Shown here: one piece after another, positions 13,830 to 52,514 of the stretch
Position numbering within the stretch: the first letter of the stretch is position 1
How the letters are laid out: every line of letters starts with the position of its first letter
DNA from: Astropecten irregularis
Lineage: Eukaryota; Echinodermata; Asteroidea; Paxillosida; Astropectinidae
Reading direction: 5' to 3'
Assembly: GCA_963971285.1 (NCBI GenBank)
Contig: OZ020246.1
Coordinates: 12,197,217-12,261,216 of the forward strand
DNA length: 64,000 bases
Program-made: the position numbers and the translations under genes
Notes under the pieces: generated by a model
What the model saw: only the letters and a program-made list of their open reading frames with translations
Databases searched by the model: none
Told to the model about the DNA's origin: nothing

Positions 13830-15134
13830 TAAGTGCAGTTTTTCTGCCGACTGCTCTGCCGTTTTGTCGCATAGCGTGTGGTGCTATACTTGGATTTTCG
13901 GCCATGAACATGACTTTGGAATTTGGCACAGCTCATACTTTCATTTAGAGTACATCTGGGGCTACATTTTGTGCAAGTTTCAGCTCGATTGCCTCTGTAT
14001 TGAGGGAGAAATTTCAAACTCTAGCAGAAAAAAGTGTCTCCTAGTCTAAGCACAGTTTTTTTGCCGCCTGCTCTGCCGTTTGTCGCATAGCGTGTGGTGC
14101 TATACTTGGATTTTCGGCCATGAACATGACTTTGGAATTTGGCACAGCTCATACTTTCCTGTAGAGTACATCTGGGGCTACATTTCGTGCAAGTTTCAGC
14201 TCGATTGCCTCAGTATTGAGGGAGAAATTTCAAACTCTAGCAGAAAAAAGTGTCTCCTAGTCTAAGAGCAGTTTTTTTACCGCCTGCTCTGCCGTTTGTC
14301 GCATAGCGTGTGGTGCTATACTTGGATTTTCGGCCATGAACATGACTTTGGAATTTGGCACAGCTCATACTTTTATTTAGAGTACATCTGGGGCTACCTT
14401 TCGTGCAAGTTTCAGCTCGATTGCCTCTGTATTGAGGGAGAAATTTCAAACTCTAACAGAAAAAAGTGTCTCATAGTCTAAGTGCAGGTTTTTTTTTGCC
14501 GCGCGCTCTGCCGTTTTGTTACATAGCGTGTGGTGCTATACTTGGATTTTCGGCCATGAACATGACTTTGGAATTTGGCACTGCTCATACTTTCTTGTAG
14601 AGTACATCTGGGGCTACATTTCGTGCAAGTTTCAGCTCGATTGCCTAAGTATTGAGGGAGAAATTTCAAACTCTAGCAGAAAAAAGTGTCTCCTAGTCTA
14701 AGCGCAGTTTTTTTACCGCCTGCTCTGCCGTTTGTCGCATAGCGTGTGGTGCTATACTTGGATTTTCGGCCATGAACATGACTTTGGAATTTGGCACAGC
14801 TCATACTTTCCTGTAGAGTACATCTGGGGCTACCTTTCGTGCAAGTTTCAGCTCGATTGCCTCTGTATTGAGGGAGAAATTTCAAACTCTTACAGAAAAA
14901 AGTGTCTCATAGTCTAAGTGCAGGTTTTTTTTTGCCGCGTGCTCTGCCGTTTTGTTACATAGCGTGTGGTGCTATACTTGGATTTTCGGCCATGAACATG
15001 ACTTTGGAATTTGGCACTGCTCATACTTTCCTGTAGAGTACATCTGGGGCTACATTTCGTGCAAGTTTCAGCTCGATTGCCTAAGTATTGAGGGAGAAAT
15101 TTTAAACTCTAGCAGAAAAAAGTGTCTCATAGTC
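13830..15134 (+). repeat. Six-monomer duplication, copy 2 (1,305 bp)
   Basis: Matches 12308-13612 in order and length at a 1,522-bp offset. It is followed at 15135 by a regular m9-type monomer rather than by the hybrid. Confidence 0.88.
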
Positions 15135-17526
15135 TAAGTGCAGTTTTTCTGCCGACTGCTCTGCCGTTTTGTCGCATAGCGTGTGGTGCTATACTTGGAT
15201 TTTCGGCCATGAACATGACTTTGGAATTTGGCACAGCTCATACTTTCCTGTAGAGTACATCTGGGGCTACATTTCGTGCAAGTTTCAGCTCGATTGCCTC
15301 AGTATTGAGGGAGAAATTTCAAACTCTAGCAGAAAAAAGTGTCTCCTAGTCTAAGCGCAGTTTTTTTACCGCCTGCTCTGCCGTTTGTCGCATAGCGTGT
15401 GGTGCTATACTTGGATTTTCGGCCATGAACATGACTTTGGAATTTGGCACAGCTCATACTTTCCTGTAGAGTACATCTGGGGCTACCTTTCGTGCAAGTT
15501 TCAGCTCGATTGCCTCAGTATTGAGGGAGAAATTTCAAACTCTAGCAGAAAAAAGTGTCTTATAGTCTAAGTGCAGGGTTTTTTTTGCCGCGTGCTCTGC
15601 CGTTTTGTCACATAGCGTGTGGTGCTATACTTGGATTTTCGGCCATGAACATGACTTTGGAATTTGGCACAGCTCATACTTTCATTTAGAGTACATCTGG
15701 GGCTACATTTTGTGCAAGTTTCAGCTCGATTGCCTCTGTATTGAGGGAGAAATTTCAAACTCTAGCAGAAAAAAGTGTCTCCTAGTCTAAGCACAGTTTT
15801 TTTGCCGCCTGCTCTGCCGTTTGTCGCATAGCGTGTGGTGCTATACTTGGATTTTCGTCCATGAACATGACTTTGGAATTTGGCACTGCTCATACTTTCC
15901 TGTAGAGTACATCTGGGGCTACATTTCGTGCAAGTTTCAGCTCGATTGCCTAAGTATTGAGGGAGAAATTGTAAACTCTAGCAGAAAAAAGTGTCTCATA
16001 GTCTAAGTGCAGTTTTTCTGCCGACTGCTCTGCCGTTTTGTCGCATAGCGTGTGGTGCTATACTTGGATTTTCGGCCATGAACATGACTTTGGAATTTGG
16101 CACAGCTCATACTTTCCTGTAGAGTACATCTGGGGCTACCTTTCGTGCAAGTTTCAGCTCGATTGCCTCTGTATTGAGGGAGAAATTTCAAACTCTAACA
16201 GAAAAAAGTGTCTCATAGTCTAAGTGCAGGTTTTTTTTTGCCGCGTGCTCTGCCGTTTTGTTACATAGCGTGTGGTGCTATACTTGGATTTTCGGCCATG
16301 AACATGACTTTGGAATTTGGCACTGCTCATACTTTCCTGTAGAGTACATCTGGGGCTACATTTCGTGCAAGTTTCAGCTCGATTGCCTAAGTATTGAGGG
16401 AGAAATTTCAAACTCTAGCAGAAAAAAGTGTCTCATAGTCTAAGTGAAGTTTTTCTGCCGACTGCTCTGCCGTTTTGTCGCATAGCGTGTGGTGCTATAC
16501 TTGGATTTTCGGCCATGAACATGACTTTGGAATTTGGCACAGCTCATACTTTCATTTAGAGTACATCTGGGGCTACATTTTGTGCAAGTTTCAGCTCGAT
16601 TGCCTCTGTATTGAGGGAGAAATTTCAAACTCTAGCAGAAAAAAGTGTCTCCTAGTCTAAGCACAGTTTTTTTGCCGCCTGCTCTGCCGTTTGTCGCATA
16701 GCGTGTGGTGCTATACTTGGATTTTCGTCCATGAACATGACTTTGGAATTTGGCACTGCTCATACTTTCCTGTAGAGTACATCTGGGGCTACATTTCGTG
16801 CAAGTTTCAGCTCGATTGCCTAAGTATTGAGGGAGAAATTGTAAACTCTAGCAGAAAAAAGTGTCTCATAGTCTAAGTGCAGTTTTTCTGCCGACTGCTC
16901 TGCCGTTTTGTCGCATAGCGTGTGGTGCTATACTTGGATTTTCGGCCATGAACATGACTTTGGAATTTGGCACAGCTCATACTTTCCTGTAGAGTACATC
17001 TGGGGCTACATTTCGTGCAAGTTTCAGCTCGATTGCCTCAGTATTGAGGGAGAAATTTCAAACTCTAGCAGAAAAAAGTGTCTCCTAGTCTAAGCGCAGT
17101 TTTTTTACCGCCTGCTCTGCCGTTTGTCGCATAGCGTGTGGTGCTATACTTGGATTTTCGGCCATGAACATGACTTTGGAATTTGGCACAGCTCATACTT
17201 TTATTTAGAGTACATCTGGGGCTACCTTTCGTGCAAGTTTCAGCTCGATTGCCTCTGTATTGAGGGAGAAATTTCAAACTCTAACAGAAAAAAGTGTCTC
17301 ATAGTCTAAGTGCAGGTTTTTTTTTGCCGCGCGCTCTGCCGTTTTGTTACATAGCGTGTGGTGCTATACTTGGATTTTCGGCCATGAACATGACTTCCGA
17401 ATTTGGCACAGCTCATACTTTCATTTAGAGTACATCTGGGGCTACATTTCGTGCAAGTTTCAGCTCGATTGCCTCAGTATTGAGGGAGAAATTTCAAACT
17501 CTAGCAGAAAAAAGTGTCTTATAGTC

Positions 17527-18179
17527 TAAGTGCAGGGTTTTTTTTGCCGCGTGCTCTGCCGTTTTGTCACATAGCGTGTGGTGCTATACTTGGATTTTCG
17601 GCCATGAACATGACTTTGGAATTTGGCACAGCTCATACTTTCATTTAGAGTACATCTGGGGCTACATTTTGTGCAAGTTTCAGCTCGATTGCCTCTGTAT
17701 TGAGGGAGAAATTTCAAACTCTAGCAGAAAAAAGTGTCTCCTAAGTCTAAGCACAGTTTTTTTGCCGCCTGCTCTGCCGTTTGTCGCATAGCGTGTGGTG
17801 CTATACTTGGATTTTCGGCCATGAACATGACTTTGGAATTTGGCACAGCTCATACTTTCCTGTAGAGTACATCTGGGGCTACATTTCGTGCAAGTTTCAG
17901 CTCGATTGCCTCAGTATTGAGGGAGAAATTTCAAACTCTAGCAGAAAAAAGTGTCTCCTAGTCTAAGCGCAGTTTTTTTACCGCCTGCTCTGCCGTTTGT
18001 CGCATAGCGTGTGGTGCTATACTTGGATTTTCGGCCATGAACATGACTTTGGAATTTGGCACAGCTCATACTTTTATTTAGAGTACATCTGGGGCTACCT
18101 TTCGTGCAAGTTTCAGCTCGATTGCCTCTGTATTGAGGGAGAAATTTCAAACTCTAACAGAAAAAAGTGTCTCATAGTC
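17527..18179 (+). repeat. Three-monomer stretch replaced between super-unit copies (copy 1 form)
   Basis: Order here is m11-type ('agggtttttttt'), an m3-like body with 'taagcacag' linker, and m4-type ('cttttattta'). At the same place in copy 2 (29055-29708) three different monomers occur. The order here agrees with 8610-9261 in the left partial copy, so this is probably the older arrangement. Confidence 0.8.
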
Positions 18180-21100
18180 TAAGTGCAGGTTTTTTTTGGC
18201 CGCGCGCTCTGCCGTTTTGTTACATAGCGTGTGGTGCTATACTTGGATTTTCGGCCATGAACATGACTTTGGAATTTGGCACTGCTCATACTTTCCTGTA
18301 GAGTACATCTGGGGCTACATTTCGTGCAAGTTTCAGCTCGATTGCCTAAGTATTGAGGGAGAAATTTCAAACTCTAGCAGAAAAAAGTGTCTCCTAGTCT
18401 AAGCGCAGTTTTTTTACCGCCTGCTCTGCCGTTTGTCGCATAGCGTGTGGTGCTATACTTGGATTTTCGGCCATGAACATGACTTTGGAATTTGGCACAG
18501 CTCATACTTTCCTGTAGAGTACATCTGGGGCTACCTTTCGTGCAAGTTTCAGCTCGATTGCCTCTGTATTGAGGGAGAAATTTCAAACTCTTACAGAAAA
18601 AAGTGTCTCATAGTCTAAGTGCAGGTTTTTTTTTTGCCGCGTGCTCTGCCGTTTTGTTACATAGCGTGTGGTGCTATACTTGGATTTTCGGCCATGAACA
18701 TGACTTTGGAATTTGGCACAGCTCATACTTTCATTTAGAGTACATCTGGGGCTACATTTTGTGCAAGTTTCAGCTCGATTGCCTCTGTATTGAGGGAGAA
18801 ATTTCAAACTCTAGCAGAAAAAAGTGTCTCCTAGTCTAAGCACAGTTTTTTTGCCGCCTGCTCTGCCGTTTGTCGCATAGCGTGTGGTGCTATACTTGGA
18901 TTTTCGGCCATGAACATGACTTTGGAATTTGGCACAGCTCATACTTTCATTTAGAGTACATCTGGGGCTACATTTTGTGCAAGTTTCAGCTCGATTGCCT
19001 CTGTATTGAGGGAGAAATTTCAAACTCTAGCAGAAAAAAGTGTCTCCTAGTCTAAGCACAGTTTTTTTGCCGCCTGCTCTGCCGTTTGTCGCATAGCGTG
19101 TGGTGCTATACTTGGATTTTCGTCCATGAACATGACTTTGGAATTTGGCACTGCTCATACTTTCCTGTAGAGTACATCTGGGGCTACATTTCGTGCAAGT
19201 TTCAGCTCGATTGCCTAAGTATTGAGGGAGAAATTGTAAACTCTAGCAGAAAAAAGTGTCTCATAGTCTAAGTGCAGTTTTTCTGCCGACTGCTCTGCCG
19301 TTTTGTCGCATAGCGTGTGGTGCTATACTTGGATTTTCGGCCATGAACATGACTTTGGAATTTGGCACAGCTCATACTTTCATTTAGAGTACATCTGGGG
19401 CTACATTTTGTGCAAGTTTCAGCTCGATTGCCTTTGTATTGAGGGAGAAATTTCAAACTCTAGCAGAAAAAAGTGTCTCCTAGTCTAAGCACAGTTTTTT
19501 TGCCGCCTGCTCTGCCGTTTGTCGCATAGCGTGTGGTGCTATACTTGGATTTTCGGCCATGAACATGACTTTGGAATTTGGCACAGCTCATACTTTCCTA
19601 TAGAGAACATCTGGGGCTACATTTCGTGCAAGTTTCAGCTCGATTCCCTAAGTATTGAGGGAGAAATTTCAAACTCTAGCAGAAAAAAGTGTCTCATAGT
19701 CTAAGTGCAGTTTTTCTGCCGACTGCTCTGCCGTTTTGTCGCATAGCGTGTGGTGCTATACTTGGATTTTCGGCCATGAACATGACTTTGGAATTTGGCA
19801 CAGCTCATACTTTCCTGTAGAGTACATCTGGGGCTACATTTCGTGCAAGTTTCAGTTCGATTGCCTAAGGATTGAGGGAGAAATTTCAAACTCTAACAGA
19901 AAAAAGTGTCTCATAGTCTAAGTGCAGGTTTTTTTTTGCCGCCTGCTCTGCCGTTTTGTCGCATAGCGTGTGGTGCTATACTTGGATTTTCGGCCATGAA
20001 CATGACTTTGGAATTTGGCACTGCTCATACTTTCCTGTAGAGTACATCTGGGGCTACATTTCGTGCAAGTTTCAGCTCGATTGCCTAAGTATTGAGGGAG
20101 AAATTTTAAACTCTAGCAGAAAAAAGTGTCTCATAGTCTAAGTGCAGTTTTTCTGCCGACTGCTCTGCCGTTTTGTCGCATAGCGTGTGGTGCTATACTT
20201 GGATTTTCGGCCATGAACATGACTTTGGAATTTGGCACAGCTCATACTTTCATTTAGAGTACATCTGGGGCTACATTTTGTGCAAGTTTCAGCTCGATTG
20301 CCTCTGTATTGAGGGAGAAATTTCAAACTCTAGCAGAAAAAAGTGTCTCCTAGTCTAAGCACAGTTTTTTTGCCGCCTGCTCTGCCGTTTGTCGCATAGC
20401 GTGTGGTGCTATACTTGGATTTTCGGCCATGAACATGACTTTGGAATTTGGCACAGCTCATACTTTCCTGTAGAGTACATCTGGGGCTACATTTCGTGCA
20501 AGTTTCAGCTCGATTGCCTCAGTATTGAGGGAGAAATTTCAAACTCTAGCAGAAAAAAGTGTCTCCTAGTCTAAGAGCAGTTTTTTTACCGCCTGCTCTG
20601 CCGTTTGTCGCATAGCGTGTGGTGCTATACTTGGATTTTCGGCCATGAACATGACTTTGGAATTTGGCACAGCTCATACTTTTATTTAGAGTACATCTGG
20701 GGCTACCTTTCGTGCAAGTTTCAGCTCGATTGCCTCTGTATTGAGGGAGAAATTTCAAACTCTAACAGAAAAAAGTGTCTCATAGTCTAAGTGCAGGTTT
20801 TTTTTTGCCGCGCGCTCTGCCGTTTTGTTACATAGCGTGTGGTGCTATACTTGGATTTTCGGCCATGAACATGACTTTGGAATTTGGCACTGCTCATACT
20901 TTCTTGTAGAGTACATCTGGGGCTACATTTCGTGCAAGTTTCAGCTCGATTGCCTAAGTATTGAGGGAGAAATTTCAAACTCTAGCAGAAAAAAGTGTCT
21001 CCTAGTCTAAGCGCAGTTTTTTTACCGCCTGCTCTGCCGTTTGTCGCATAGCGTGTGGTGCTATACTTGGATTTTCGGCCATGAACATGACTTTGGAATT

Positions 21101-22096
21101 TGGCACAGCTCATACTTTCCTGTAGAGTACATCTGGGGCTACCTTTCGTGCAAGTTTCAGCTCGATTGCCTCTGTATTGAGGGAGAAATTTCAAACTCTT
21201 ACAGAAAAAAGTGTCTCATAGTCTAAGTGCAGGTTTTTTTTTGCCGCGTGCTCTGCCGTTTTGTTACATAGCGTGTGGTGCTATACTTGGATTTTCGGCC
21301 ATGAACATGACTTTGGAATTTGGCACTGCTCATACTTTCCTGTAGAGTACATCTGGGGCTACATTTCGTGCAAGTTTCAGCTCGATTGCCTAAGTATTGA
21401 GGGAGAAATTTTAAACTCTAGCAGAAAAAAGTGTCTCATAGTCTAAGTGCAGTTTTTCTGCCGACTGCTCTGCCGTTTTGTCGCATAGCGTGTGGTGCTA
21501 TACTTGGATTTTCGGCCATGAACATGACTTTGGAATTTGGCACAGCTCATACTTTCCTGTAGAGTACATCTGGGGCTACATTTCGTGCAAGTTTCAGCTC
21601 GATTGCCTCAGTATTGAGGGAGAAATTTCAAACTCTAGCAGAAAAAAGTGTCTCCTAGTCTAAGCGCAGTTTTTTTACCGCCTGCTCTGCCGTTTGTCGC
21701 ATAGCGTGTGGTGCTATACTTGGATTTTCGGCCATGAACATGACTTTGGAATTTGGCACAGCTCATACTTTCCTGTAGAGTACATCTGGGGCTACCTTTC
21801 GTGCAAGTTTCAGCTCGATTGCCTCAGTATTGAGGGAGAAATTTCAAACTCTAGCAGAAAAAAGTGTCTTATAGTCTAAGTGCAGGGTTTTTTTTGCCGC
21901 GTGCTCTGCCGTTTTGTCACATAGCGTGTGGTGCTATACTTGGATTTTCGGCCATGAACATGACTTTGGAATTTGGCACAGCTCATACTTTCATTTAGAG
22001 TACATCTGGGGCTACATTTTGTGCAAGTTTCAGCTCGATTGCCTCAGTATTGAGGGAGAAATTTCAAACTCTAGCAGAAAAAAGTGTCTCCTAGTC

Positions 22097-22312
22097 TAAG
22101 CGCAGTTTTTTTACCGCCTGCTCTGCCGTTTGTCGCATAGCGTGTGGTGCTATACTTGGATTTTCGGCCATGAACATGACTTTGGAATTTGGCACAGCTC
22201 ATACTTTCCTGTAGAGTACATCTGGGGCTACCTTTCGTGCAAGTTTCAGCTCGATTGCCTCAGTATTGAGGGAGAAATTTCAAACTCTAGCAGAAAAAAG
22301 TGTCTTATAGTC
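22097..22312 (+). repeat. Monomer missing from super-unit copy 2
   Basis: This m10-like monomer follows an m11-linked monomer at 21877 and precedes another m11-type at 22313. In copy 2 the offset drops here from 11,528 to 11,312 bp, a loss of 216 bp or exactly one monomer. Copy 2 has a single hybrid monomer (33405) instead of 21877 plus 22097. Confidence 0.85.
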
Positions 22313-25300
22313 TAAGTGCAGGGTTTTTTTTGCCGCGTGCTCTGCCGTTTTGTCACATAGCGTGTGGTGCTATACTTGGATTTTCGGCCATGAACATGAC
22401 TTTGGAATTTGGCACAGCTCATACTTTCATTTAGAGTACATCTGGGGCTACATTTTGTGCAAGTTTCAGCTCGATTGCCTCTGTATTGAGGGAGAAATTT
22501 CAAACTCTAGCAGAAAAAAGTGTCTCCTAGTCTAAGCACAGTTTTTTTGCCGCCTGCTCTGCCGTTTGTCGCATAGCGTGTGGTGCTATACTTGGATTTT
22601 CGTCCATGAACATGACTTTGGAATTTGGCACTGCTCATACTTTCCTGTAGAGTACATCTGGGGCTACATTTCGTGCAAGTTTCAGCTCGATTGCCTAAGT
22701 ATTGAGGGAGAAATTGTAAACTCTAGCAGAAAAAAGTGTCTCATAGTCTAAGTGCAGTTTTTCTGCCGACTGCTCTGCCGTTTTGTCGCATAGCGTGTGG
22801 TGCTATACTTGGATTTTCGGCCATGAACATGACTTTGGAATTTGGCACAGCTCATACTTTCCTGTAGAGTACATCTGGGGCTACATTTCGTGCAAGTTTC
22901 AGCTCGATTGCCTCAGTATTGAGGGAGAAATTTCAAACTCTAGCAGAAAAAAGTGTCTCATAGTCTAAGTGCAGTTTTTCTGCCGACTGCTCTGCCGTTT
23001 TGTCTCATAGCGTGTGGTGCTATACTTGGATTTTCGGCCATGAACATGACTTTGGAATTTGGCACAGCTCATACTTTCCTGTAGAGTACATCTGGGGCTA
23101 CATTTCGTGCAAGTTTCAGTTCGATTGCCTAAGGATTGAGGGAGAAATTTCAAACTCTAACAGAAAAAAGTGTCTCATAGTCTAAGTGCAGGTTTTTTTT
23201 TGCCGCCTGCTCTGCCGTTTTGTCGCATAGCGTGTGGTGCTATACTTGGATTTTCGGCCATGAACATGACTTTGGAATTTGGCACTGCTCATACTTTCCT
23301 GTAGAGTACATCTGGGGCTACATTTCGTGCAAGTTTCAGCTCGATTGCCTAAGTATTGAGGGAGAAATTTTAAACTCTAGCAGAAAAAAGTGTCTCATAG
23401 TCTAAGTGCAGTTTTTCTGCCGACTGCTCTGCCGTTTTGTCGCATAGCGTGTGGTGCTATACTTGGATTTTCGGCCATGAACATGACTTTGGAATTTGGC
23501 ACAGCTCATACTTTCCTGTAGAGTACATCTGGGGCTACATTTCGTGCAAGTTTTAGCTCGATTGCCTCAGTATTGAGGGAGAAATTTCAAACTCTAGCAG
23601 AAAAAAGTGTCTCCTAGTCTAAGTGCAGTTTTTCTGCCGACTGCTCTGCCGTTTTGTCGCATAGCGTGTGGTGCTATACTTGGATTTTCGGCCATGAACA
23701 TGACTTTGGAATTTGGCACAGCTCATACTTTCATTTAGAGTACATCTGGGGCTACATTTTGTGCAAGTTTCAGCTCGATTGCCTCTGTATTGAGGGAGAA
23801 ATTTCAAACTCTAGCAGAAAAAAGTGTCTCCTAGTCTAAGCACAGTTTTTTTGCCGCCTGCTCTGCCGTTTGTCGCATAGCGTGTGGTGCTATACTTGGA
23901 TTTTCGTCCATGAACATGACTTTGGAATTTGGCACTGCTCATACTTTCCTGTAGAGTACATCTGGGGCTACATTTCGTGCAAGTTTCAGCTCGATTGCCT
24001 AAGTATTGAGGGAGAAATTGTAAACTTTAGCAGAAAAAAGTGTCTCATAGTCTAAGTGCAGTTTTTCTGCCGACTGCTCTGCCGTTTTGTCGCATAGCGT
24101 GTGGTGCTATACTTGGATTTTCGGCCATGAACATGACTTTGGAATTTGGCACAGCTCATACTTTCATTTAGAGTACATCTGGGGCTACATTTTGTGCAAG
24201 TTTCAGCTCGATTGCCTTTGTATTGAGGGAGAAATTTCAAACTCTAGCAGAAAAAAGTGTCTCCTAGTCTAAGCACAGTTTTTTTGCCGCCTGCTCTGCC
24301 GTTTGTCGCATAGCGTGTGGTGCTATACTTGGATTTTCGGCCATGAACATGACTTTGGAATTTGGCACAGCTCATACTTTCCTATAGAGAACATCTGGGG
24401 CTACATTTCGTGCAAGTTTCAGCTCGATTCCCTAAGTATTGAGGGAGAAATTTCAAACTCTAGCAGAAAAAAGTGTCTCATAGTCTAAGTGCAGTTTTTC
24501 TGCCGACTGCTCTGCCGTTTTGTCGCATAGCGTGTGGTGCTATACTTGGATTTTCGGCCATGAACATGACTTTGGAATTTGGCACAGCTCATACTTTCCT
24601 GTAGAGTACATCTGGGGCTACATTTCGTGCAAGTGTCAGTTCGATTGCCTAAGGATTGAGGGAGAAATTTCAAACTCTAACAGAAAAAAGTGTCTCATAG
24701 TCTAAGTGCAGGTTTTTTTTTGCCGCCTGCTCTGCCGTTTTGTCGCATAGCGTGTGGTGCTATACTTGGATTTTCGGCCATGAACATGACTTTGGAATTT
24801 GGCACTGCTCATACTTTCCTGTAGAGTACATCTGGGGCTACATTTCGTGCAAGTTTCAGCTCGATTGCCTAAGTATTGAGGGAGAAATTTTAAACTCTAG
24901 CAGAAAAAAGTGTCTCATAGTCTAAGTGCAGTTTTTCTGCCGACTGCTCTGCCGTTTTGTCGCATAGCGTGTGGTGCTATACTTGGATTTTCGGCCATGA
25001 ACATGACTTTGGAATTTGGCACAGCTCATACTTTCCTGTAGAGTACATCTGGGGCTACATTTCGTGCAAGTTTCAGCTCGATTGCCTAAGTATTGAGGGA
25101 GAAATTTCAAACTCTAGCAGAAAAAAGTGTCTCCTAGTCTAAGCGCAGTTTTTTTACCGCCTGCTCTGCCGTTTGTCGCATAGCGTGTGGTGCTATACTT
25201 GGATTTTCGGCCATGAACATGACTTTGGAATTTGGCACAGCTCATACTTTCCTGTAGAGTACATCTGGGGCTACCTTTCGTGCAAGTTTCAGCTCGATTG

Positions 25301-26445
25301 CCTCAGTATTGAGGGAGAAATTTCAAACTCTAGCAGAAAAAAGTGTCTTATAGTCTAAGTGCAGGTTTTTTTTTGCCGCGTGCTCTGCCGTTTTGTCACA
25401 TAGCGTGTGGTGCTATACTTGGATTTTCGGCCATGAACATGACTTTGGAATTTGGCACAGCTCATACTTTCATTTAGAGTACATCTGGGGCTACATTTTG
25501 TGCAAGTTTCAGCTCGATTGCCTCTGTATTGAGGGAGAAATTTCAAACTCTAGCAGAAAAAAGTGTCTCCTAGTCTAAGCACAGTTTTTTTGCCGCCTGC
25601 TCTGCCGTTTTGTCGCATAGCGTGTGGTGCTATACTTGGATTTTCGGCCATGAACATGACTTTGGAATTTGGCACAGCTCATACTTTCCTGTAGAGTACA
25701 TCTGGGGCTACATTTCGTGCAAGTTTCAGCTCGATTGCCTAAGGATTGAGGGAGAAATTTCAAACTCTAACAGAAAAAAGTGTCTCATAGTCTAAGTGCA
25801 GGTTTTTTTTTGCCGCCTGCTCTGCCGTTTTGTCGCATAGCGTGTGGTGCTATACTTGGATTTTCGGCCATGAACATGACTTTGGAATTTGGCACTGCTC
25901 ATACTTTCCTGTAGAGTACATCTGGGGCTACATTTCGTGCAAGTTTCAGCTCGATTGCCTAAGTATTGAGGGAGAAATTTTAAACTCTAGCAGAAAAAAG
26001 TGTCTCATAGTCTAAGTGCAGTTTTTCTGCCGACTGCTCTGCCGTTTTGTCGCATAGCGTGTGGTGCTATACTTGGATTTTCGGCCATGAACATGACTTT
26101 GGAATTTGGCAAAGCTCATACTTTCCTGTAGAGTACATCTGGGGCTACATTTCGTGCAAGTTTTAGCTCGATTGCCTCAGTATTGAGGGAGAAATTTCAA
26201 ACTCTAGCAGAAAAAAGTGTCTCCTAGTCTAAGCGCAGTTTTTTTACCGCCTGCTCTGCCGTTTGTCGCATAGCGTGTGGTGCTATACTTGGATTTTCGG
26301 CCATGAACATGACTTTGGAATTTGGCACAGCTCATACTTTCCTGTAGAGTACATCTAGGGTTACCTTTCGTGCAAGTTTCAGCTCGATTGACTCAGTATT
26401 GAGGGAGAAATTTCAAACTCTAGCAGAAAAAAGTGTCTCCTAGTC

Positions 26446-26662
26446 TAAGTGCAGTTTTTTTGCCGACTGCTCTGCCGTTTTGTCACATAGCGTGTGGTGC
26501 TATACTTGGATTTTCGGCCATGAACATGACTTTGGAATTTGGCACTGCTCATACTTTCCTGTAGAGTACATCTGGGGCTACATTTCGTGCAAGTTTCAGC
26601 TCGATTGCCTAAGTATTGAGGGAGAAATTGTAAACTCTAGCAGAACAAAGTGTCTCATAGTC
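26446..26662 (+). repeat. Hybrid m1/m2 monomer (deletion junction)
   Basis: The start is m1-type ('tttttttgccgac', 'gtcacatag', 'cggccatg'). From 'cactgctcat' onward it is m2-type, ending 'aattgtaaac' and 'agaacaaag'. Copy 2 still has the two separate parents at 37758 (m1) and 37975 (m2, carrying the same 'agaacaaag'). One monomer was therefore lost in copy 1 by exchange between adjacent m1 and m2. Confidence 0.88.
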
Positions 26663-28834
26663 TAAGTGCAGTTTTTCTGCCGACTGCTCTGCCGTTTTGT
26701 CGCATAGCGTGTGGTGCTATACTTGGATTTTCGGCCATGAACATGACTTTGGAATTTGGCACAGCTCATACTTTCCTGTAGAGTACATCTGGGGCTACAT
26801 TTCGTGCAAGTTTCAGCTCGATTGCCTCAGTATTGAGGGAGAAATTTCAAACTCTAGCAGAAAAAAGTGTCTCCTAGTCTAAGCGCAGTTTTTTTACCGC
26901 CTGCTCTGCCGTTTGTCGCATAGCGTGTGGTGCTATACTTGGATTTTCGGCCATGAACATGACTTTGGAATTTGGCACAGCTCATACTTTCCTGTAGAGT
27001 ACATCTGGGGCTACCTTTCGTGCAAGTTTCAGCTCGATTGCCTCAGTATTGAGGGAGAAATTTCAAACTCTAGCAGAAAAAAGTGTCTTATAGTCTAAGT
27101 GCAGGGTTTTTTTTGCCGCGTGCTCTGCCGTTTTGTCACATAGCGTGTGGTGCTATACTTGGATTTTCGGCCATGAACATGACTTTGGAATTTGGCACAG
27201 CTCATACTTTCATTTAGAGTACATCTGGGGCTACATTTTGTGCAAGTTTCAGCTCGATTGCCTCTGTATTGAGGGAGAAATTTCAAACTCTAGCAGAAAA
27301 AAGTGTCTCCTAGTCTAAGCACAGTTTTTTTGCCGCCTGCTCTGCCGTTTGTCGCATAGCGTGTGGTGCTATACTTGGATTTTCGTCCATGAACATGACT
27401 TTGGAATTTGGCACTGCTCATACTTTCCTGTAGAGTACATCTGGGGCTACATTTCGTGCAAGTTTCAGCTCGATTGCCTAAGTATTGAGGGAGAAATTGT
27501 AAACTCTAGCAGAAAAAAGTGTCTCATAGTCTAAGTGCAGTTTTTCTGCCGACTGCTCTGCCGTTTTGTCGCATAGCGTGTGGTGCTATACTTGGATTTT
27601 CGGCCATGAACATGACTTTGGAATTTGGCACAGCTCATACTTTCCTGTAGAGTACATCTGGGGCTACCTTTCGTGCAAGTTTCAGCTCGATTGCCTCTGT
27701 ATTGAGGGAGAAATTTCAAACTCTAACAGAAAAAAGTGTCTCATAGTCTAAGTGCAGGTTTTTTTTTGCCGCGTGCTCTGCCGTTTTGTTACATAGCGTG
27801 TGGTGCTATACTTGGATTTTCGGCCATGAACATGACTTTGGAATTTGGCACTGCTCATACTTTCCTGTAGAGTACATCTGGGGCTACATTTCGTGCAAGT
27901 TTCAGCTCGATTGCCTAAGTATTGAGGGAGAAATTTCAAACTCTAGCAGAAAAAAGTGTCTCATAGTCTAACTGAAGTTTTTCTGCCGACTGCTCTGCCG
28001 TTTTGTCGCATAGCGTGTGGTGCTATACTTGGATTTTCGGCCATGAACATGACTTTGGAATTTGGCACAGCTCATACTTTCATTTAGAGTACATCTGGGG
28101 CTACATTTTGTGCAAGTTTCAGCTCGATTGCCTCTGTATTGAGGGAGAAATTTCAAACTCTAGCAGAAAAAAGTGTCTCCTAGTCTAAGCACAGTTTTTT
28201 TGCCGCCTGCTCTGCCGTTTGTCGCATAGCGTGTGGTGCTATACTTGGATTTTCGTCCATGAACATGACTTTGGAATTTGGCACTGCTCATACTTTCCTG
28301 TAGAGTACATCTGGGGCTACATTTCGTGCAAGTTTCAGCTCGATTGCCTAAGTATTGAGGGAGAAATTGTAAACTCTAGCAGAAAAAAGTGTCTCATAGT
28401 CTAAGTGCAGTTTTTCTGCCGACTGCTCTGCCGTTTTGTCGCATAGCGTGTGGTGCTATACTTGGATTTTCGGCCATGAACATGACTTTGGAATTTGGCA
28501 CAGCTCATACTTTCCTGTAGAGTACATCTGGGGCTACATTTCGTGCAAGTTTCAGCTCGATTGCCTCAGTATTGAGGGAGAAATTTCAAACTCTAGCAGA
28601 AAAAAGTGTCTCCTAGTCTAAGCGCAGTTTTTTTACCGCCTGCTCTGCCGTTTGTCGCATAGCGTGTGGTGCTATACTTGGATTTTCGGCCATGAACATG
28701 ACTTTGGAATTTGGCACAGCTCATACTTTTATTTAGAGTACATCTGGGGCTACCTTTCGTGCAAGTTTCAGCTCGATTGCCTCTGTATTGAGGGAGAAAT
28801 TTCAAACTCTAACAGAAAAAAGTGTCTCATAGTC

Positions 28835-29271
28835 TAAGTGCAGGTTTTTTTTTGCCGCGCGCTCTGCCGTTTTGTTACATAGCGTGTGGTGCTATACTTG
28901 GATTTTCGGCCATGAACATGACTTCCGAATTTGGCACAGCTCATACTTTCATTTAGAGTACATCTGGGGCTACATTTCGTGCAAGTTTCAGCTCGATTGC
29001 CTCAGTATTGAGGGAGAAATTTCAAACTCTAGCAGAAAAAAGTGTCTCATAGTCTAAGTGCAGTTTTTCTGCCGACTGCTCTGCCGTTTTGTCGCATAGC
29101 GTGTGGTGCTATACTTGGATTTTCGGCCATGAACATGACTTTGGAATTTGGCACTGCTCATACTTTCCTGTAGAGTACATCTGGGGCTACCTTTCGTGCA
29201 AGTTTCAGCTCGATTGCCTCTGTATTGAGGGAGAAATTTCAAACTCTAACAGAAAAAAGTGTCTCATAGTC
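28835..29271 (+). repeat. Dimer tandem duplication, copy 1 (437 bp)
   Basis: A monomer with the double substitution 'gacttccgaa' plus a monomer that combines 'cactgctcat' with 'ctacctttcg' and 'ctaacag'. The same pair restarts at 29272. Only the first monomer of the pair has a counterpart at this place in super-unit copy 1 (17307). Confidence 0.9.
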
Positions 29272-29708
29272 TAAGTGCAGGTTTTTTTTTGCCGCGCGCT
29301 CTGCCGTTTTGTTACATAGCGTGTGGTGCTATACTTGGATTTTCGGCCATGAACATGACTTCCGAATTTGGCACAGCTCATACTTTCATTTAGAGTACAT
29401 CTGGGGCTACATTTCGTGCAAGTTTCAGCTCGATTGCCTCAGTATTGAGGGAGAAATTTCAAACTCTAGCAGAAAAAAGTGTCTCATAGTCTAAGTGCAG
29501 TTTTTCTGCCGACTGCTCTGCCGTTTTGTCGCATAGCGTGTGGTGCTATACTTGGATTTTCGGCCATGAACATGACTTTGGAATTTGGCACTGCTCATAC
29601 TTTCCTGTAGAGTACATCTGGGGCTACCTTTCGTGCAAGTTTCAGCTCGATTGCCTCTGTATTGAGGGAGAAATTTCAAACTCTAACAGAAAAAAGTGTC
29701 TCATAGTC
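29272..29708 (+). repeat. Dimer tandem duplication, copy 2 (437 bp)
   Basis: Same two subtypes as 28835-29271. I saw no difference by eye, which suggests a very recent event within super-unit copy 2. Confidence 0.9.
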
Positions 29709-32700
29709 TAAGTGCAGGTTTTTTTTTGCCGCGCGCTCTGCCGTTTTGTTACATAGCGTGTGGTGCTATACTTGGATTTTCGGCCATGAACATGACTTTG
29801 GAATTTGGCACTGCTCATACTTTCCTGTAGAGTACATCTGGGGCTACATTTCGTGCAAGTTTCAGCTCGATTGCCTAAGTATTGAGGGAGAAATTTCAAA
29901 CTCTAGCAGAAAAAAGTGTCTCCTAGTCTAAGCGCAGTTTTTTTACCGCCTGCTCTGCCGTTTGTCGCATAGCGTGTGGTGCTATACTTGGATTTTCGGC
30001 CATGAACATGACTTTGGAATTTGGCACAGCTCATACTTTCCTGTAGAGTACATCTGGGGCTACCTTTCGTGCAAGTTTCAGCTCGATTGCCTCTGTATTG
30101 AGGGAGAAATTTCAAACTCTTACAGAAAAAAGTGTCTCATAGTCTAAGTGCAGGTTTTTTTTTGCCGCGTGCTCTGCCGTTTTGTTACATAGCGTGTGGT
30201 GCTATACTTGGATTTTCGGCCATGAACATGACTTTGGAATTTGGCACAGCTCATACTTTCATTTAGAGTACATCTGGGGCTACATTTTGTGCAAGTTTCA
30301 GCTCGATTGCCTCTGTATTGAGGGAGAAATTTCAAACTCTAGCAGAAAAAAGTGTCTCCTAGTCTAAGCACAGTTTTTTTGCCGCCTGCTCTGCCGTTTG
30401 TCGCATAGCGTGTGGTGCTATACTTGGATTTTCGGCCATGAACATGACTTTGGAATTTGGCACAGCTCATACTTTCATTTAGAGTACATCTGGGGCTACA
30501 TTTTGTGCAAGTTTCAGCTCGATTGCCTCTGTATTGAGGGAGAAATTTCAAACTCTAGCAGAAAAAAGTGTCTCCTAGTCTAAGCACAGTTTTTTTGCCG
30601 CCTGCTCTGCCGTTTGTCGCATAGCGTGTGGTGCTATACTTGGATTTTCGTCCATGAACATGACTTTGGAATTTGGCACTGCTCATACTTTCCTGTAGAG
30701 TACATCTGGGGCTACATTTCGTGCAAGTTTCAGCTCGATTGCCTAAGTATTGAGGGAGAAATTGTAAACTCTAGCAGAAAAAAGTGTCTCATAGTCTAAG
30801 TGCAGTTTTTCTGCCGACTGCTCTGCCGTTTTGTCGCATAGCGTGTGGTGCTATACTTGGATTTTCGGCCATGAACATGACTTTGGAATTTGGCACAGCT
30901 CATACTTTCATTTAGAGTACATCTGGGGCTACATTTTGTGCAAGTTTCAGCTCGATTGCCTTTGTATTGAGGGAGAAATTTCAAACTCTAGCAGAAAAAA
31001 GTGTCTCCTAGTCTAAGCACAGTTTTTTTGCCGCCTGCTCTGCCGTTTGTCGCATAGCGTGTGGTGCTATACTTGGATTTTCGGCCATGAACATGACTTT
31101 GGAATTTGGCACAGCTCATACTTTCCTATAGAGAACATCTGGGGCTACATTTCGTGCAAGTTTCAGCTCGATTCCCTAAGTATTGAGGGAGAAATTTCAA
31201 ACTCTAGCAGAAAAAAGTGTCTCATAGTCTAAGTGCAGTTTTTCTGCCGACTGCTCTGCCGTTTTGTCGCATAGCGTGTGGTGCTATACTTGGATTTTCG
31301 GCCATGAACATGACTTTGGAATTTGGCACAGCTCATACTTTCCTGTAGAGTACATCTGGGGCTACATTTCGTGCAAGTTTCAGTTCGATTGCCTAAGGAT
31401 TGAGGGAGAAATTTCAAACTCTAACAGAAAAAAGTGTCTCATAGTCTAAGTGCAGGTTTTTTTTTGCCGCCTGCTCTGCCGTTTTGTCGCATAGCGTGTG
31501 GTGCTATACTTGGATTTTCGGCCATGAACATGACTTTGGAATTTGGCACTGCTCATACTTTCCTGTAGAGTACATCTGGGGCTACATTTCGTGCAAGTTT
31601 CAGCTCGATTGCCTAAGTATTGAGGGAGAAATTTTAAACTCTAGCAGAAAAAAGTGTCTCATAGTCTAAGTGCAGTTTTTCTGCCGACTGCTCTGCCGTT
31701 TTGTCGCATAGCGTGTGGTGCTATACTTGGATTTTCGGCTATGAACATGACTTTGGAATTTGGCACAGCTCATACTTTCATTTAGAGTACATCTGGGGCT
31801 ACATTTTGTGCAAGTTTCAGCTCGATTGCCTCTGTATTGAGGGAGAAATTTCAAACTCTAGCAGAAAAAAGTGTCTCCTAGTCTAAGCACAGTTTTTTTG
31901 CCGCCTGCTCTGCCGTTTGTCGCATAGCGTGTGGTGCTATACTTGGATTTTCGGCCATGAACATGACTTTGGAATTTGGCACAGCTCATACTTTCCTGTA
32001 GAGTACATCTGGGGCTACATTTCGTGCAAGTTTCAGCTCGATTGCCTCAGTATTGAGGGAGAAATTTCAAACTCTAGCAGAAAAAAGTGTCTCCTAGTCT
32101 AAGAGCAGTTTTTTTACCGCCTGCTCTGCCGTTTGTCGCATAGCGTGTGGTGCTATACTTGGATTTTCGGCCATGAACATGACTTTGGAATTTGGCACAG
32201 CTCATACTTTTATTTAGAGTACATCTGGGGCTACCTTTCGTGCAAGTTTCAGCTCGATTGCCTCTGTATTGAGGGAGAAATTTCAAACTCTAACAGAAAA
32301 AAGTGTCTCATAGTCTAAGTGCAGGTTTTTTTTTGCCGCGCGCTCTGCCGTTTTGTTACATAGCGTGTGGTGCTATACTTGGATTTTCGGCCATGAACAT
32401 GACTTTGGAATTTGGCACTGCTCATACTTTCTTGTAGAGTACATCTGGGGCTACATTTCGTGCAAGTTTCAGCTCGATTGCCTAAGTATTGAGGGAGAAA
32501 TTTCAAACTCTAGCAGAAAAAAGTGTCTCCTAGTCTAAGCGCAGTTTTTTTACCGCCTGCTCTGCCGTTTGTCGCATAGCGTGTGGTGCTATACTTGGAT
32601 TTTCGGCCATGAACATGACTTTGGAATTTGGCACAGCTCATACTTTCCTGTAGAGTACATCTGGGGCTACCTTTCGTGCAAGTTTCAGCTCGATTGCCTC

Positions 32701-33404
32701 TGTATTGAGGGAGAAATTTCAAACTCTTACAGAAAAAAGTGTCTCATAGTCTAAGTGCAGGTTTTTTTTTGCCGCGTGCTCTGCCGTTTTGTTACATAGC
32801 GTGTGGTGCTATACTTGGATTTTCGGCCATGAACATGACTTTGGAATTTGGCACTGCTCATACTTTCCTGTAGAGTACATCTGGGGCTACATTTCGTGCA
32901 AGTTTCAGCTCGATTGCCTAAGTATTGAGGGAGAAATTTTAAACTCTAGCAGAAAAAAGTGTCTCATAGTCTAAGTGCAGTTTTTCTGCCGACTGCTCTG
33001 CCGTTTTGTCGCATAGCGTGTGGTGCTATACTTGGATTTTCGGCCATGAACATGACTTTGGAATTTGGCACAGCTCATACTTTCCTGTAGAGTACATCTG
33101 GGGCTACATTTCGTGCAAGTTTCAGCTCGATTGCCTCAGTATTGAGGGAGAAATTTCAAACTCTAGCAGAAAAAAGTGTCTCCTAGTCTAAGCGCAGTTT
33201 TTTTACCGCCTGCTCTGCCGTTTGTCGCATAGCGTGTGGTGCTATACTTGGATTTTCGGCCATGAACATGACTTTGGAATTTGGCACAGCTCATACTTTC
33301 CTGTAGAGTACATCTGGGGCTACCTTTCGTGCAAGTTTCAGCTCGATTGCCTCAGTATTGAGGGAGAAATTTCAAACTCTAGCAGAAAAAAGTGTCTTAT
33401 AGTC

Positions 33405-33624
33405 TAAGTGCAGGGTTTTTTTTGCCGCGTGCTCTGCCGTTTTGTCACATAGCGTGTGGTGCTATACTTGGATTTTCGGCCATGAACATGACTTTGGAAT
33501 TTGGCACAGCTCATACTTTCATTTAGAGTACATCTGGGGCTACATTTTGTGCAAGTTTCAGCTCGATTGCCTCAGTATTGAGGGAGAAATTTCAAACTCT
33601 AGCAGAAAAAAGTGTCTTATAGTC
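33405..33624 (+). repeat. Hybrid monomer marking a one-monomer deletion in super-unit copy 2
   Basis: The start has the 'agggtttttttt' linker, 'gtcacatag' and 'tttcatttag' body of the 21877 monomer. The end has the 'gtcttatag' boundary of the 22097 monomer. It replaces both of them. Confidence 0.85.
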
Positions 33625-36600
33625 TAAGTGCAGGGTTTTTTTTGCCGCGTGCTCTGCCGTTTTGTCACATAGCGTGTGGTGCTATACTTGGATTTTCGGC
33701 CATGAACATGACTTTGGAATTTGGCACAGCTCATACTTTCATTTAGAGTACATCTGGGGCTACATTTTGTGCAAGTTTCAGCTCGATTGCCTCTGTATTG
33801 AGGGAGAAATTTCAAACTCTAGCAGAAAAAAGTGTCTCCTAGTCTAAGCACAGTTTTTTTGCCGCCTGCTCTGCCGTTTGTCGCATAGCGTGTGGTGCTA
33901 TACTTGGATTTTCGTCCATGAACATGACTTTGGAATTTGGCACTGCTCATACTTTCCTGTAGAGTACATCTGGGGCTACATTTCGTGCAAGTTTCAGCTC
34001 GATTGCCTAAGTATTGAGGGAGAAATTGTAAACTCTAGCAGAAAAAAGTGTCTCATAGTCTAAGTGCAGTTTTTCTGCCGACTGCTCTGCCGTTTTGTCG
34101 CATAGCGTGTGGTGCTATACTTGGATTTTCGGCCATGAACATGACTTTGGAATTTGGCACAGCTCATACTTTCCTGTAGAGTACATCTGGGGCTACATTT
34201 CGTGCAAGTTTCAGCTCGATTGCCTCAGTATTGAGGGAGAAATTTCAAACTCTAGCAGAAAAAAGTGTCTCATAGTCTAAGTGCAGTTTTTCTGCCGACT
34301 GCTCTGCCGTTTTGTCTCATAGCGTGTGGTGCTATACTTGGATTTTCGGCCATGAACATGACTTTGGAATTTGGCACAGCTCATACTTTCCTGTAGAGTA
34401 CATCTGGGGCTACATTTCGTGCAAGTTTCAGTTCGATTGCCTAAGGATTGAGGGAGAAATTTCAAACTCTAACAGAAAAAAGTGTCTCATAGTCTAAGTG
34501 CAGGTTTTTTTTTGCCGCCTGCTCTGCCGTTTTGTCGCATAGCGTGTGGTGCTATACTTGGATTTTCGGCCATGAACATGACTTTGGAATTTGGCACTGC
34601 TCATACTTTCCTGTAGAGTACATCTGGGGCTACATTTCGTGCAAGTTTCAGCTCGATTGCCTAAGTATTGAGGGAGAAATTTTAAACTCTAGCAGAAAAA
34701 AGTGTCTCATAGTCTAAGTGCAGTTTTTCTGCCGACTGCTCTGCCGTTTTGTCGCATAGCGTGTGGTGCTATACTTGGATTTTCGGCCATGAACATGACT
34801 TTGGAATTTGGCACAGCTCATACTTTCCTGTAGAGTACATCTGGGGCTACATTTCGTGCAAGTTTTAGCTCGATTGCCTCAGTATTGAGGGAGAAATTTC
34901 AAACTCTAGCAGAAAAAAGTGTCTCCTAGTCTAAGTGCAGTTTTTCTGCCGACTGCTCTGCCGTTTTGTCGCATAGCGTGTGGTGCTATACTTGGATTTT
35001 CGGCCATGAACATGACTTTGGAATTTGGCACAGCTCATACTTTCATTTAGAGTACATCTGGGGCTACATTTTGTGCAAGTTTCAGCTCGATTGCCTCTGT
35101 ATTGAGGGAGAAATTTCAAACTCTAGCAGAAAAAAGTGTCTCCTAGTCTAAGCACAGTTTTTTTGCCGCCTGCTCTGCCGTTTGTCGCATAGCGTGTGGT
35201 GCTATACTTGGATTTTCGTCCATGAACATGACTTTGGAATTTGGCACTGCTCATACTTTCCTGTAGAGTACATCTGGGGCTACATTTCGTGCAAGTTTCA
35301 GCTCGATTGCCTAAGTATTGAGGGAGAAATTGTAAACTTTAGCAGAAAAAAGTGTCTCATAGTCTAAGTGCAGTTTTTCTGCCGACTGCTCTGCCGTTTT
35401 GTCGCATAGCGTGTGGTGCTATACTTGGATTTTCGGCCATGAACATGACTTTGGAATTTGGCACAGCTCATACTTTCATTTAGAGTACATCTGGGGCTAC
35501 ATTTTGTGCAAGTTTCAGCTCGATTGCCTTTGTATTGAGGGAGAAATTTCAAACTCTAGCAGAAAAAAGTGTCTCCTAGTCTAAGCACAGTTTTTTTGCC
35601 GCCTGCTCTGCCGTTTGTCGCATAGCGTGTGGTGCTATACTTGGATTTTCGGCCATGAACATGACTTTGGAATTTGGCACAGCTCATACTTTCCTATAGA
35701 GAACATCTGGGGCTACATTTCGTGCAAGTTTCAGCTCGATTCCCTAAGTATTGAGGGAGAAATTTCAAACTCTAGCAGAAAAAAGTGTCTCATAGTCTAA
35801 GTGCAGTTTTTCTGCCGACTGCTCTGCCGTTTTGTCGCATAGCGTGTGGTGCTATACTTGGATTTTCGGCCATGAACATGACTTTGGAATTTGGCACAGC
35901 TCATACTTTCCTGTAGAGTACATCTGGGGCTACATTTCGTGCAAGTGTCAGTTCGATTGCCTAAGGATTGAGGGAGAAATTTCAAACTCTAACAGAAAAA
36001 AGTGTCTCATAGTCTAAGTGCAGGTTTTTTTTTGCCGCCTGCTCTGCCGTTTTGTCGCATAGCGTGTGGTGCTATACTTGGATTTTCGGCCATGAACATG
36101 ACTTTGGAATTTGGCACTGCTCATACTTTCCTGTAGAGTACATCTGGGGCTACATTTCGTGCAAGTTTCAGCTCGATTGCCTAAGTATTGAGGGAGAAAT
36201 TTTAAACTCTAGCAGAAAAAAGTGTCTCATAGTCTAAGTGCAGTTTTTCTGCCGACTGCTCTGCCGTTTTGTCGCATAGCGTGTGGTGCTATACTTGGAT
36301 TTTCGGCCATGAACATGACTTTGGAATTTGGCACAGCTCATACTTTCCTGTAGAGTACATCTGGGGCTACATTTCGTGCAAGTTTCAGCTCGATTGCCTA
36401 AGTATTGAGGGAGAAATTTCAAACTCTAGCAGAAAAAAGTGTCTCCTAGTCTAAGCGCAGTTTTTTTACCGCCTGCTCTGCCGTTTGTCGCATAGCGTGT
36501 GGTGCTATACTTGGATTTTCGGCCATGAACATGACTTTGGAATTTGGCACAGCTCATACTTTCCTGTAGAGTACATCTGGGGCTACCTTTCGTGCAAGTT

Positions 36601-38407
36601 TCAGCTCGATTGCCTCAGTATTGAGGGAGAAATTTCAAACTCTAGCAGAAAAAAGTGTCTTATAGTCTAAGTGCAGGTTTTTTTTTGCCGCGTGCTCTGC
36701 CGTTTTGTCACATAGCGTGTGGTGCTATACTTGGATTTTCGGCCATGAACATGACTTTGGAATTTGGCACAGCTCATACTTTCATTTAGAGTACATCTGG
36801 GGCTACATTTTGTGCAAGTTTCAGCTCGATTGCCTCTGTATTGAGGGAGAAATTTCAAACTCTAGCAGAAAAAAGTGTCTCCTAGTCTAAGCACAGTTTT
36901 TTTGCCGCCTGCTCTGCCGTTTTGTCGCATAGCGTGTGGTGCTATACTTGGATTTTCGGCCATGAACATGACTTTGGAATTTGGCACAGCTCATACTTTC
37001 CTGTAGAGTACATCTGGGGCTACATTTCGTGCAAGTTTCAGCTCGATTGCCTAAGGATTGAGGGAGAAATTTCAAACTCTAACAGAAAAAAGTGTCTCAT
37101 AGTCTAAGTGCAGGTTTTTTTTTGCCGCCTGCTCTGCCGTTTTGTCGCATAGCGTGTGGTGCTATACTTGGATTTTCGGCCATGAACATGACTTTGGAAT
37201 TTGGCACTGCTCATACTTTCCTGTAGAGTACATCTGGGGCTACATTTCGTGCAAGTTTCAGCTCGATTGCCTAAGTATTGAGGGAGAAATTTTAAACTCT
37301 AGCAGAAAAAAGTGTCTCATAGTCTAAGTGCAGTTTTTCTGCCGACTGCTCTGCCGTTTTGTCGCATAGCGTGTGCTGCTATACTTGGATTTTCGGCCAT
37401 GAACATGACTTTGGAATTTGGCAAAGCTCATACTTTCCTGTAGAGTACATCTGGGGCTACATTTCGTGCAAGTTTTAGCTCGATTGCCTCAGTATTGAGG
37501 GAGAAATTTCAAACTCTAGCAGAAAAAAGTGTCTCCTAGTCTAAGCGCAGTTTTTTTACCGCCTGCTCTGCCGTTTGTCGCATAGCGTGTGGTGCTATAC
37601 TTGGATTTTCGGCCATGAACATGACTTTGGAATTTGGCACAGCTCATACTTTCCTGTAGAGTACATCTAGGGTTACCTTTCGTGCAAGTTTCAGCTCGAT
37701 TGACTCAGTATTGAGGGAGAAATTTCAAACTCTAGCAGAAAAAAGTGTCTCCTAGTCTAAGTGCAGTTTTTTTGCCGACTGCTCTGCCGTTTTGTCACAT
37801 AGCGTGTGGTGCTATACTTGGATTTTCGGCCATGAACATGACTTTGGAATTTGGCACAGCTCATACTTTCATTTAGAGTACATCTGGGGCTACATTTTGT
37901 GCAAGTTTCAGCTCGATTGCCTCTGTATTGAGGGAGAAATTTCAAACTCTAGCAGAAAAAAGTGTCTCCTAGTCTAAGCACAGTTTTTTTGCCGCCTGCT
38001 CTGCCGTTTGTCGCATAGCGTGTGGTGCTATACTTGGATTTTCGTCCATGAACATGACTTTGGAATTTGGCACTGCTCATACTTTCCTGTAGAGTACATC
38101 TGGGGCTACATTTCGTGCAAGTTTCAGCTCGATTGCCTAAGTATTGAGGGAGAAATTGTAAACTCTAGCAGAACAAAGTGTCTCATAGTCTAAGTGCAGT
38201 TTTTCTGCCGACTGCTCTGCCGTTTTGTCGCATAGCGTGTGGTGCTATACTTGGATTTTCGGCCATGAACATGACTTTGGAATTTGGCACAGCTCATACT
38301 TTCCTGTAGAGTACATCTGGGGCTACATTTCGTGCAAGTTTCAGCTCGATTGCCTCAGTATTGAGGGAGAAATTTCAAACTCTAGCAGAAAAAAGTGTCT
38401 CCTAGTC

Positions 38408-39497
38408 TAAGCGCAGTTTTTTTACCGCCTGCTCTGCCGTTTGTCGCATAGCGTGTGGTGCTATACTTGGATTTTCGGCCATGAACATGACTTTGGAATT
38501 TGGCACAGCTCATACTTTTATTTAGAGTACATCTGGGGCTACCTTTCGTGCAAGTTTCAGCTCGATTGCCTCTGTATTGAGGGAGAAATTTCAAACTCTA
38601 ACAGAAAAAAGTGTCTCATAGTCTAAGTGCAGGTTTTTTTTTTGCCGCGCGCTCTGCCGTTTTGTTACATAGCGTGTGGTGCTATACTTGGATTTTCGGC
38701 CATGAACATGACTTTGGAATTTGGCACTGCTCATACTTTCCTGTAGAGTACATCTGGGGTTACATTTTGTGCAAGTTTCAGCTCGATTGCCTTTGTATTG
38801 AGGGAGAAATTTCAAACTCTAGCAGAAAAAAGTGTCTCCTAGTCTAAGCACAGTTTTTTTGCCGCCTGCTCTGCCGTTTGTCGCATAGCGTGTGGTGCTA
38901 TACTTGGATTTTCGGCCATGAACATGACTTTGGAATTTGGCACAGCTCATACTTTCCTATAGAGAACATCTGGGGCTACATTTCGTGCAAGTTTCAGCTC
39001 GATTCCCTAAGTATTGAGGGAGAAATTTCAAACTCTAGCAGAAAAAAGTGTCTCATAGTCCAAGTGCAGTTTTTCTGCCGACTGCTCTGCCGTTTTGTCG
39101 CATAGCGTGTGGTGCTATACTTGGATTTTCGGCCATGAACATGACTTTGGAATTTGGCACAGCTCATACTTTCCTGTAGAGTACATCTGGGGCTACATTT
39201 CGTGCAAGTTTCAGTTCGATTGCCTAAGGATTGAGGGAGAAATTTCAAACTCTAACAGAAAAAAGTGTCTCATAGTCTAAGTGCAGGTTTTTTTTTGCCG
39301 CCTGCTCTGCCGTTTTGTCGCATAGCGTGTGGTGCTATACTTGGATTTTCGGCCATGAACATGACTTTGGAATTTGGCACTGCTCATACTTTCCTGTAGA
39401 GTACATATGGGGCTACATTTCGTGCAAGTTTCAGCTCGATTGCCTAAGTATTGAGGGAGAAATTTTAAACTCTAGCAGAAAAAAGTGTCTCCTAGTC
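38408..39497 (+). repeat. Five-monomer tandem duplication, copy 1 (1,090 bp)
   Basis: Shares with copy 2 the rare boundary 'caag' instead of 'taag' (39061 here, 40151 there). Private changes here are 'ggggttac' near 38760 and 'acatatgg' at 39407. The fifth monomer ends 'cctag' here and 'catag' in copy 2. Confidence 0.9.
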
Positions 39498-49200: not shown

Positions 49201-49506
49201 TGGGGCTACATTTCGTGCAAGTTTCAGCTCGATTGCCTCAGTATTGAGGGAGAAATTTCAAACTCTAGCAGAAAAAAGTGTCTCCTAGTCTAAGCGCAGT
49301 TTTTTTACCGCCTGCTCTGCCGTTTGTCGCATAGCGTGTGGTGCTATACTTGGATTTTCGGCCATGAACATGACTTTGGAATTTGGCACAGCTCATACTT
49401 TCCTGTAGAGTACATCTGGGGCTACCTTTCGTGCAAGTTTCAGCTCGATTGACTCAGTATTGAGGGAGAAATTTCAAACTCTAGCAGAAAAAAGTGTCTC
49501 CTAGTC
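46244..49506 (+). repeat. HOR unit H3, 15 monomers (3,263 bp)
   Basis: Complete m1-m15. It carries 'gcaagattcag' in m8 (A at 47915), shared only with H6. A private G-to-T in m14 at 49162 ('gacttttgaa') is not in H6, so it arose after the two separated. Confidence 0.93.
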
Positions 49507-52354: not shown

Positions 52355-52376
52355 CGACTGCTCTGCCGTTTTGTCG

Positions 52377-52512: not shown

Positions 52513-52514
52513 GA

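Follow-up and report, generated by a model that had tools for sequence, protein, structure and literature searches.

Duplication and loss processes of the kind considered here belong to the standard models of satellite evolution. An HOR array of the alpha-satellite type consists of a unit repeated many times in register, as is the case for human alpha-satellite HOR units. The locus described here resembles these HORs in its multi-monomer blocks and in the high identity between copies, but presents two copies where they present many units in register. In maize CentC, the portion of the study drawn on here describes an adjacent segmental duplication of 10 monomers in CEN10, as well as the loss of a single monomer via a 5'/3' chimera of two neighbours, shown between two inbreds (PMC4806543). 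The present locus likewise combines the duplication of an adjacent monomer block with an apparent one-monomer loss through a neighbour chimera; it differs in the length of the block (53 monomers here, 10 there), in the satellite concerned, and in that the loss, observed between two inbreds there, would here have occurred between copies within one assembly (PMC4806543). Set against the cases in that portion of the CentC study, the 53-monomer pair is longer and lies in another satellite, yet it is the same kind of thing. In Arabidopsis, CEN178 HORs are, in the relevant section of the TRASH study, pairs of similar monomer blocks (PMC10199239). Block pairs with few variants also occur here, and one monomer may similarly join several pairs, but the monomer here is 217 bp and CEN178 is likened by the TRASH definition, not by sequence (PMC10199239). 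In contrast to CEN178-type blocks, the pair here is adjacent and is interrupted by a patch and by indels.

The window (the whole 64-kb stretch of DNA that was analysed) is filled throughout by a satellite array, a long head-to-tail run of similar monomers in one orientation. Phasing of 294 boundaries yields 293 monomers, with 291 of 293 measuring 215-221 bp and 271 of 293 measuring 216, 217 or 220 bp; Tandem Repeats Finder also gives a 217-bp period across the window. Exact copies of a test motif number 287 in the forward orientation and 0 in reverse. Two short monomers, at 2176-2320 (145 bp) and 7323-7522 (200 bp), are the sole ones outside the 215-221 bp range. The 293 monomers comprise 91 distinct sequences, and 47 monomers lack an identical twin. 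Random monomers differ at a mean of 10.2 sites, which serves as the background hereafter (the poly-T region is scored as a single site in these counts). No long reading frame is present, the longest stop-to-stop stretch in six frames of the whole window being 106 codons.

Sequence searches give no match for this satellite in Rfam (at the gathering score), in viral contigs (exact search with one motif), in genome contigs (exact search with another motif), in plasmid sequences (two-monomer query) or in the literature text searched (five short monomer strings). The Hedysarum repeat HF 252, as given in an excerpt of its description, is also 217 bp and is likened by length only (PMC11595117), and the basic centromeric monomer of hop is, in the corresponding excerpt, 284 bp (PMC12371157). 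The consensus contains no CENP-B-box-like match when up to 2 substitutions are allowed, a result that neither supports nor excludes a centromeric role. The array is likely to have the role of general satellite array DNA, and is possibly centromeric.

An earlier note on this DNA described two adjacent blocks of equal monomer count and length, and this is borne out: each block contains 53 monomers in 11,528 bp, and 15135, 26663 and 38191 are exact monomer boundaries by phasing (Table 1). Ungapped identity between the copies is 71.9%, a low value that results from register shifts. Allowing gaps raises identity to 99.69% across 11,307 aligned columns, and to 99.95% (5 mismatches and a single 1-bp gap over 10,658 aligned bases) when a three-monomer patch and two monomer indels are left out. 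Positions at which each copy carries a variant of its own include 16444/27972, 20212/31740 and 26064/37376. The adjacent copies are hence far more alike than the background of 10.2 differences per monomer, and the segmental-scale tandem duplication inside the array that had been proposed is well supported. At a 53-monomer offset, 29 of the initial 32 monomers lie within 2 differences of their counterparts and the remaining monomers do not; at an offset of 52 monomers, m102-m120 match with one difference in total. The register along the pair therefore starts at 53 monomers, drops to 52 and returns to 53. That both copies total 53 monomers and 11,528 bp arises because two opposite one-monomer differences cancel; the equal length is a coincidence, and no sign of an intact unit.

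Table 1. Positions of the tandem pairs, shared tracts and monomers discussed in the text, in window coordinates.
Feature	Positions	Strand	Remarks
Copy 1 of the tandem duplication	15135..26662	.	m69-m121; 53 monomers, 11,528 bp; from phasing, monomer differences and gapped alignment
Copy 2 of the tandem duplication	26663..38190	.	m122-m174; 53 monomers, 11,528 bp; from phasing, monomer differences and gapped alignment
344-bp exact tract, start of copy 1	15119..15462	.	candidate exchange site; common to all three boundaries
344-bp tract, copy 1/copy 2 junction	26647..26990	.	in m122
344-bp tract, right end of copy 2	38175..38518	.	in m175; 53-monomer register ends after it
Three-monomer patch, copy 1	17527..18179	.	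m80-82; probable older state, from m35-45 against m76-86
Three-monomer patch, copy 2	29055..29708	.	m133-135; probable changed state; repeated dimer, m132 = m134 and m133 = m135
Extra 216 bp of copy 1	22021..22236	.	lacks counterpart in copy 2; right of m100 and left of m101 as placed by the aligner; gapped alignment
m153, copy 2	33405..33624	.	fits m100-left/m101-right exactly, breakpoint columns 146-215; weak
m121, end of copy 1	26446..26662	.	exact m173-left/m174-right chimera, breakpoint columns 77-105
m173 and m174, copy 2	37758..38190	.	counterpart of the single chimera m121; gapped alignment and chimera fit
39-monomer tandem pair, first copy	45374..53856	.	m208-246; comparison case
39-monomer tandem pair, second copy	53857..60599	.	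31 monomers still match; comparison case

Comparison with other block pairs, as the earlier note had suggested, gives the same picture. A banded monomer alignment of the pair has a cost of 74; non-overlapping 53-monomer block pairs, of which 4,465 were sampled by using every second start, average 386 (sd 48), and the 25 lowest-cost block pairs listed are all shifted versions of copy 1/copy 2. Near-identical runs (up to 2 differences per monomer at a single offset) between the copies extend over 19, 18 and 11 monomers; the longest in the window, 31 monomers, belongs to a separate 39-monomer pair, and in 200 shuffles of monomer order no such run ever exceeded 5. The 31-mers that occur exactly twice in the window, one per copy, number 226, with an offset of 11,312 in 195 and of 11,528 in 31. 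By the TRASH default thresholds (at least 3 monomers, up to 5 variants), applied with our own script to a MAFFT alignment and so not TRASH's own output, the window holds 456 block pairs, versus a shuffle mean of 83 and maximum of 115 (100 shuffles). This type of count breaks up the 53-monomer pair (segments of 19 and of 18 monomers are among the longest) because the patch and the indels interrupt it.

Six private variants had been cited as shared by the two copies. Three of these, GCAAAGCTC, CTAGGGTTAC and AGAACAAAG, are strictly private, with exactly two occurrences each in the window, one per copy; AAACTTTAGC and AAGTGTCAG are nearly so, with three occurrences each. GTCTCATAG occurs 143 times in the window, is not private, and drops out. 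Four of the five informative variants lie at an offset of 11,312 (52 monomers) and one of the five at 11,528. The third sites, at 2941 (AAACTTTAGC, m12) and 3335 (AAGTGTCAG, m14), place these variants two monomers apart, versus three monomers apart in m109-m112, which suggests that the stretch m109-m112 has an older relative in the m12/m14 region.

Of the two one-monomer differences, that at the end of the pair is the better resolved. The gapped alignment leaves 216 bp of copy 2, placed at 37830-38045, missing from copy 1, and the single monomer m121 is exactly accounted for as a chimera of m173 and m174. Among adjacent pairs in array order, this is the only exact fit (1 of 290), and across all ordered pairs there are 8 of 83,810, all with m174 as right parent. 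Fusion of m173-left with m68-right was tried and rejected, given that it leaves 2 mismatches, a fit equalled or bettered by 513 of 83,810 pairs. Because the series m173-m176 is found again at m193-196 and at m200-203, each time with one difference, the two-monomer state (m173, m174) appears to be older than the fused m121, an order that fails if those blocks were copied from copy 2. The other difference, in the middle of the pair, is ambiguous: either monomer loss in copy 2 or gains of unequal size in the two copies could explain m100-m101 against m153. The exact fit of m153 as a chimera was rejected as proof of monomer loss, being weakened by its own control. It carries little weight because m153 and m100 differ at two columns only and because 288 of 83,810 ordered pairs also fit exactly; m100/m101 is the one exact fit among 290 adjacent pairs in array order, and 15 adjacent pairs fit when reversed, including m100-left/m99-right. 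Adjacent-pair chimeras are not in excess in the window, explaining 7 of the 47 unique monomers, compared with a mean of 8.2 (6-11) over 20 random pairings. Exact chimeras are thus not enriched window-wide, and therefore only the chimera indicated by the alignment carries weight.

Between these regions of high identity lies the three-monomer patch, across which copy 2 and copy 1 have 619 identical positions, 30 mismatches and 9 gap bases. The older patch has probably been retained in copy 1 and altered in copy 2, since m35-45 match m76-86 (offset 41) straight through the copy 1 patch with 0-3 differences per monomer, but break against the copy 2 equivalent at three monomers (12, 13 and 9 differences). 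Among 84,390 pairs, there is no exact chimera that would account for the patch; the best local one (m77/m78 or m77/m82) leaves 1 mismatch.

Taken from sequence comparison, the probable origin of the pair is a single recent event of register-preserving unequal homologous exchange, which duplicated about 53 monomers in tandem to give two copies and was followed by small later changes. Misaligned sister chromatids or homologues would have exchanged within an identical monomer, now present as m69, m122 and m175, through crossing over or through break repair with the same outcome, such that the intervening interval was duplicated in register. Copy 1 would later have lost one monomer via exchange between neighbours, giving m121; the copies would have diverged by one monomer at m100-m101/m153 (either copy 2 lost it or the two made unequal gains); and three copy 2 monomers would have been replaced by the repeated dimer, by conversion or by deletion and then dimer duplication. 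The same sequence is found at both ends of the pair and at its junction, with a chance rate of 4.5-8.6%: the exact match between the monomer starts at 15135 and 38191 extends 16 bp left and 328 bp right, and the exchange perhaps took place within this identical 344-bp tract. Tracts of at least 344 bp link 4.5% of the 41,616 boundary pairs separated by 5 or more monomers and 8.6% of the 187 separated by 106 monomers (the 15135/38191 pair counted in both), because of which the tract is compatible with an exchange site and is no proof of one. Events of the same kind elsewhere in the window, namely the 39-monomer pair and the block pairs at offsets of 12, 15, 24 and 36 monomers, also support tandem duplication. 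If real, the pair is a clear worked example of satellite array growth, in which one can still read the junction and, from an exact chimeric monomer, at least one later loss of a single monomer. Its use is illustrative, the processes being described in the cited portion of the maize CentC study (PMC4806543).

Break-induced replication or template switching, in place of reciprocal unequal crossing over, is a possible though not the favoured route to the same structure; it would be a variant within the explanation just given and would not add to it. Either process would likewise yield an in-register tandem copy, and a template switch could account for the three-monomer swap in copy 2, but the sequence in this window fits crossing over equally well. 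It is unlikely that the duplication is false, an artefact of the assembler joining two haplotypes head to tail or repeating a single locus in this way. The five SNVs, one 1-bp indel, two monomer indels and one three-monomer swap that separate the copies do resemble allelic differences. However, the junction is in register and lies inside a tract also found at the far end, and comparable duplications of different period are scattered through the window, although neither point is decisive. The earlier note's term 'super-unit' is not supported in the sense of a regularly repeating unit, and a true 53-monomer HOR that continues beyond the window or has since been worn away is very improbable. In its favour, two adjacent copies are present, their pieces qualify as a HOR in the TRASH sense of two similar blocks, as worded in the section cited (PMC10199239), and monomers of the block preceding copy 1 show a mean of 9.1 differences at this offset, slightly below the background of 10.2. 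Against it, the block from m175 starts with an identical monomer and continues with 6, 8, 7, 6 and 6 differences, and over its last 52 monomers averages 10.4 differences, level with the background (10.2). A regular 53-monomer HOR is rejected on the grounds that the unit is not repeated many times, the window holding two copies only.

With tandem duplication by unequal exchange as the preferred reading, the monomer at the candidate exchange site can be followed through the array. Twenty-eight of the 293 monomers are identical to m69 (the m69 class), and the copies of both large tandem pairs start at members of this class (m69/m122 and m208/m247); the monomers one period further, m175 and m286, also belong to it. 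That this class is a preferred exchange site, steering where the array recombines, would be a most doubtful conclusion, as the pattern was spotted post hoc in two events and the similarity of the 39-monomer pair ends at m277, before m286.

The window is a patchwork of tandem duplication events. In the 39-monomer pair, m208-238 and m247-277 differ by 1 mismatch in 6,743 bp. Its age relative to that of the 53-monomer pair would have to be judged from 1/6,743 against 5/10,658, counts too small to order the two. Block pairs of at least 10 monomers are found at offsets that include 12, 15, 18, 24, 27, 34 and 36 monomers. Between 43634 and 63432, near-identical runs are nested at offsets of 12, 15, 18, 24 and 27 monomers, and one block of six monomers (m193-198) appears again at m200, m212 and m251. 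Altogether, 219 of the 293 monomers fall in near-identical runs of at least 10. By position along the array, the initial 69 monomers contribute 16 of these, the 106 that follow contribute 97 and the final 118 contribute 106. Homogenisation is weaker towards the left (1-15134), where 16 of 69 monomers lie in such runs, than elsewhere (203 of 224).
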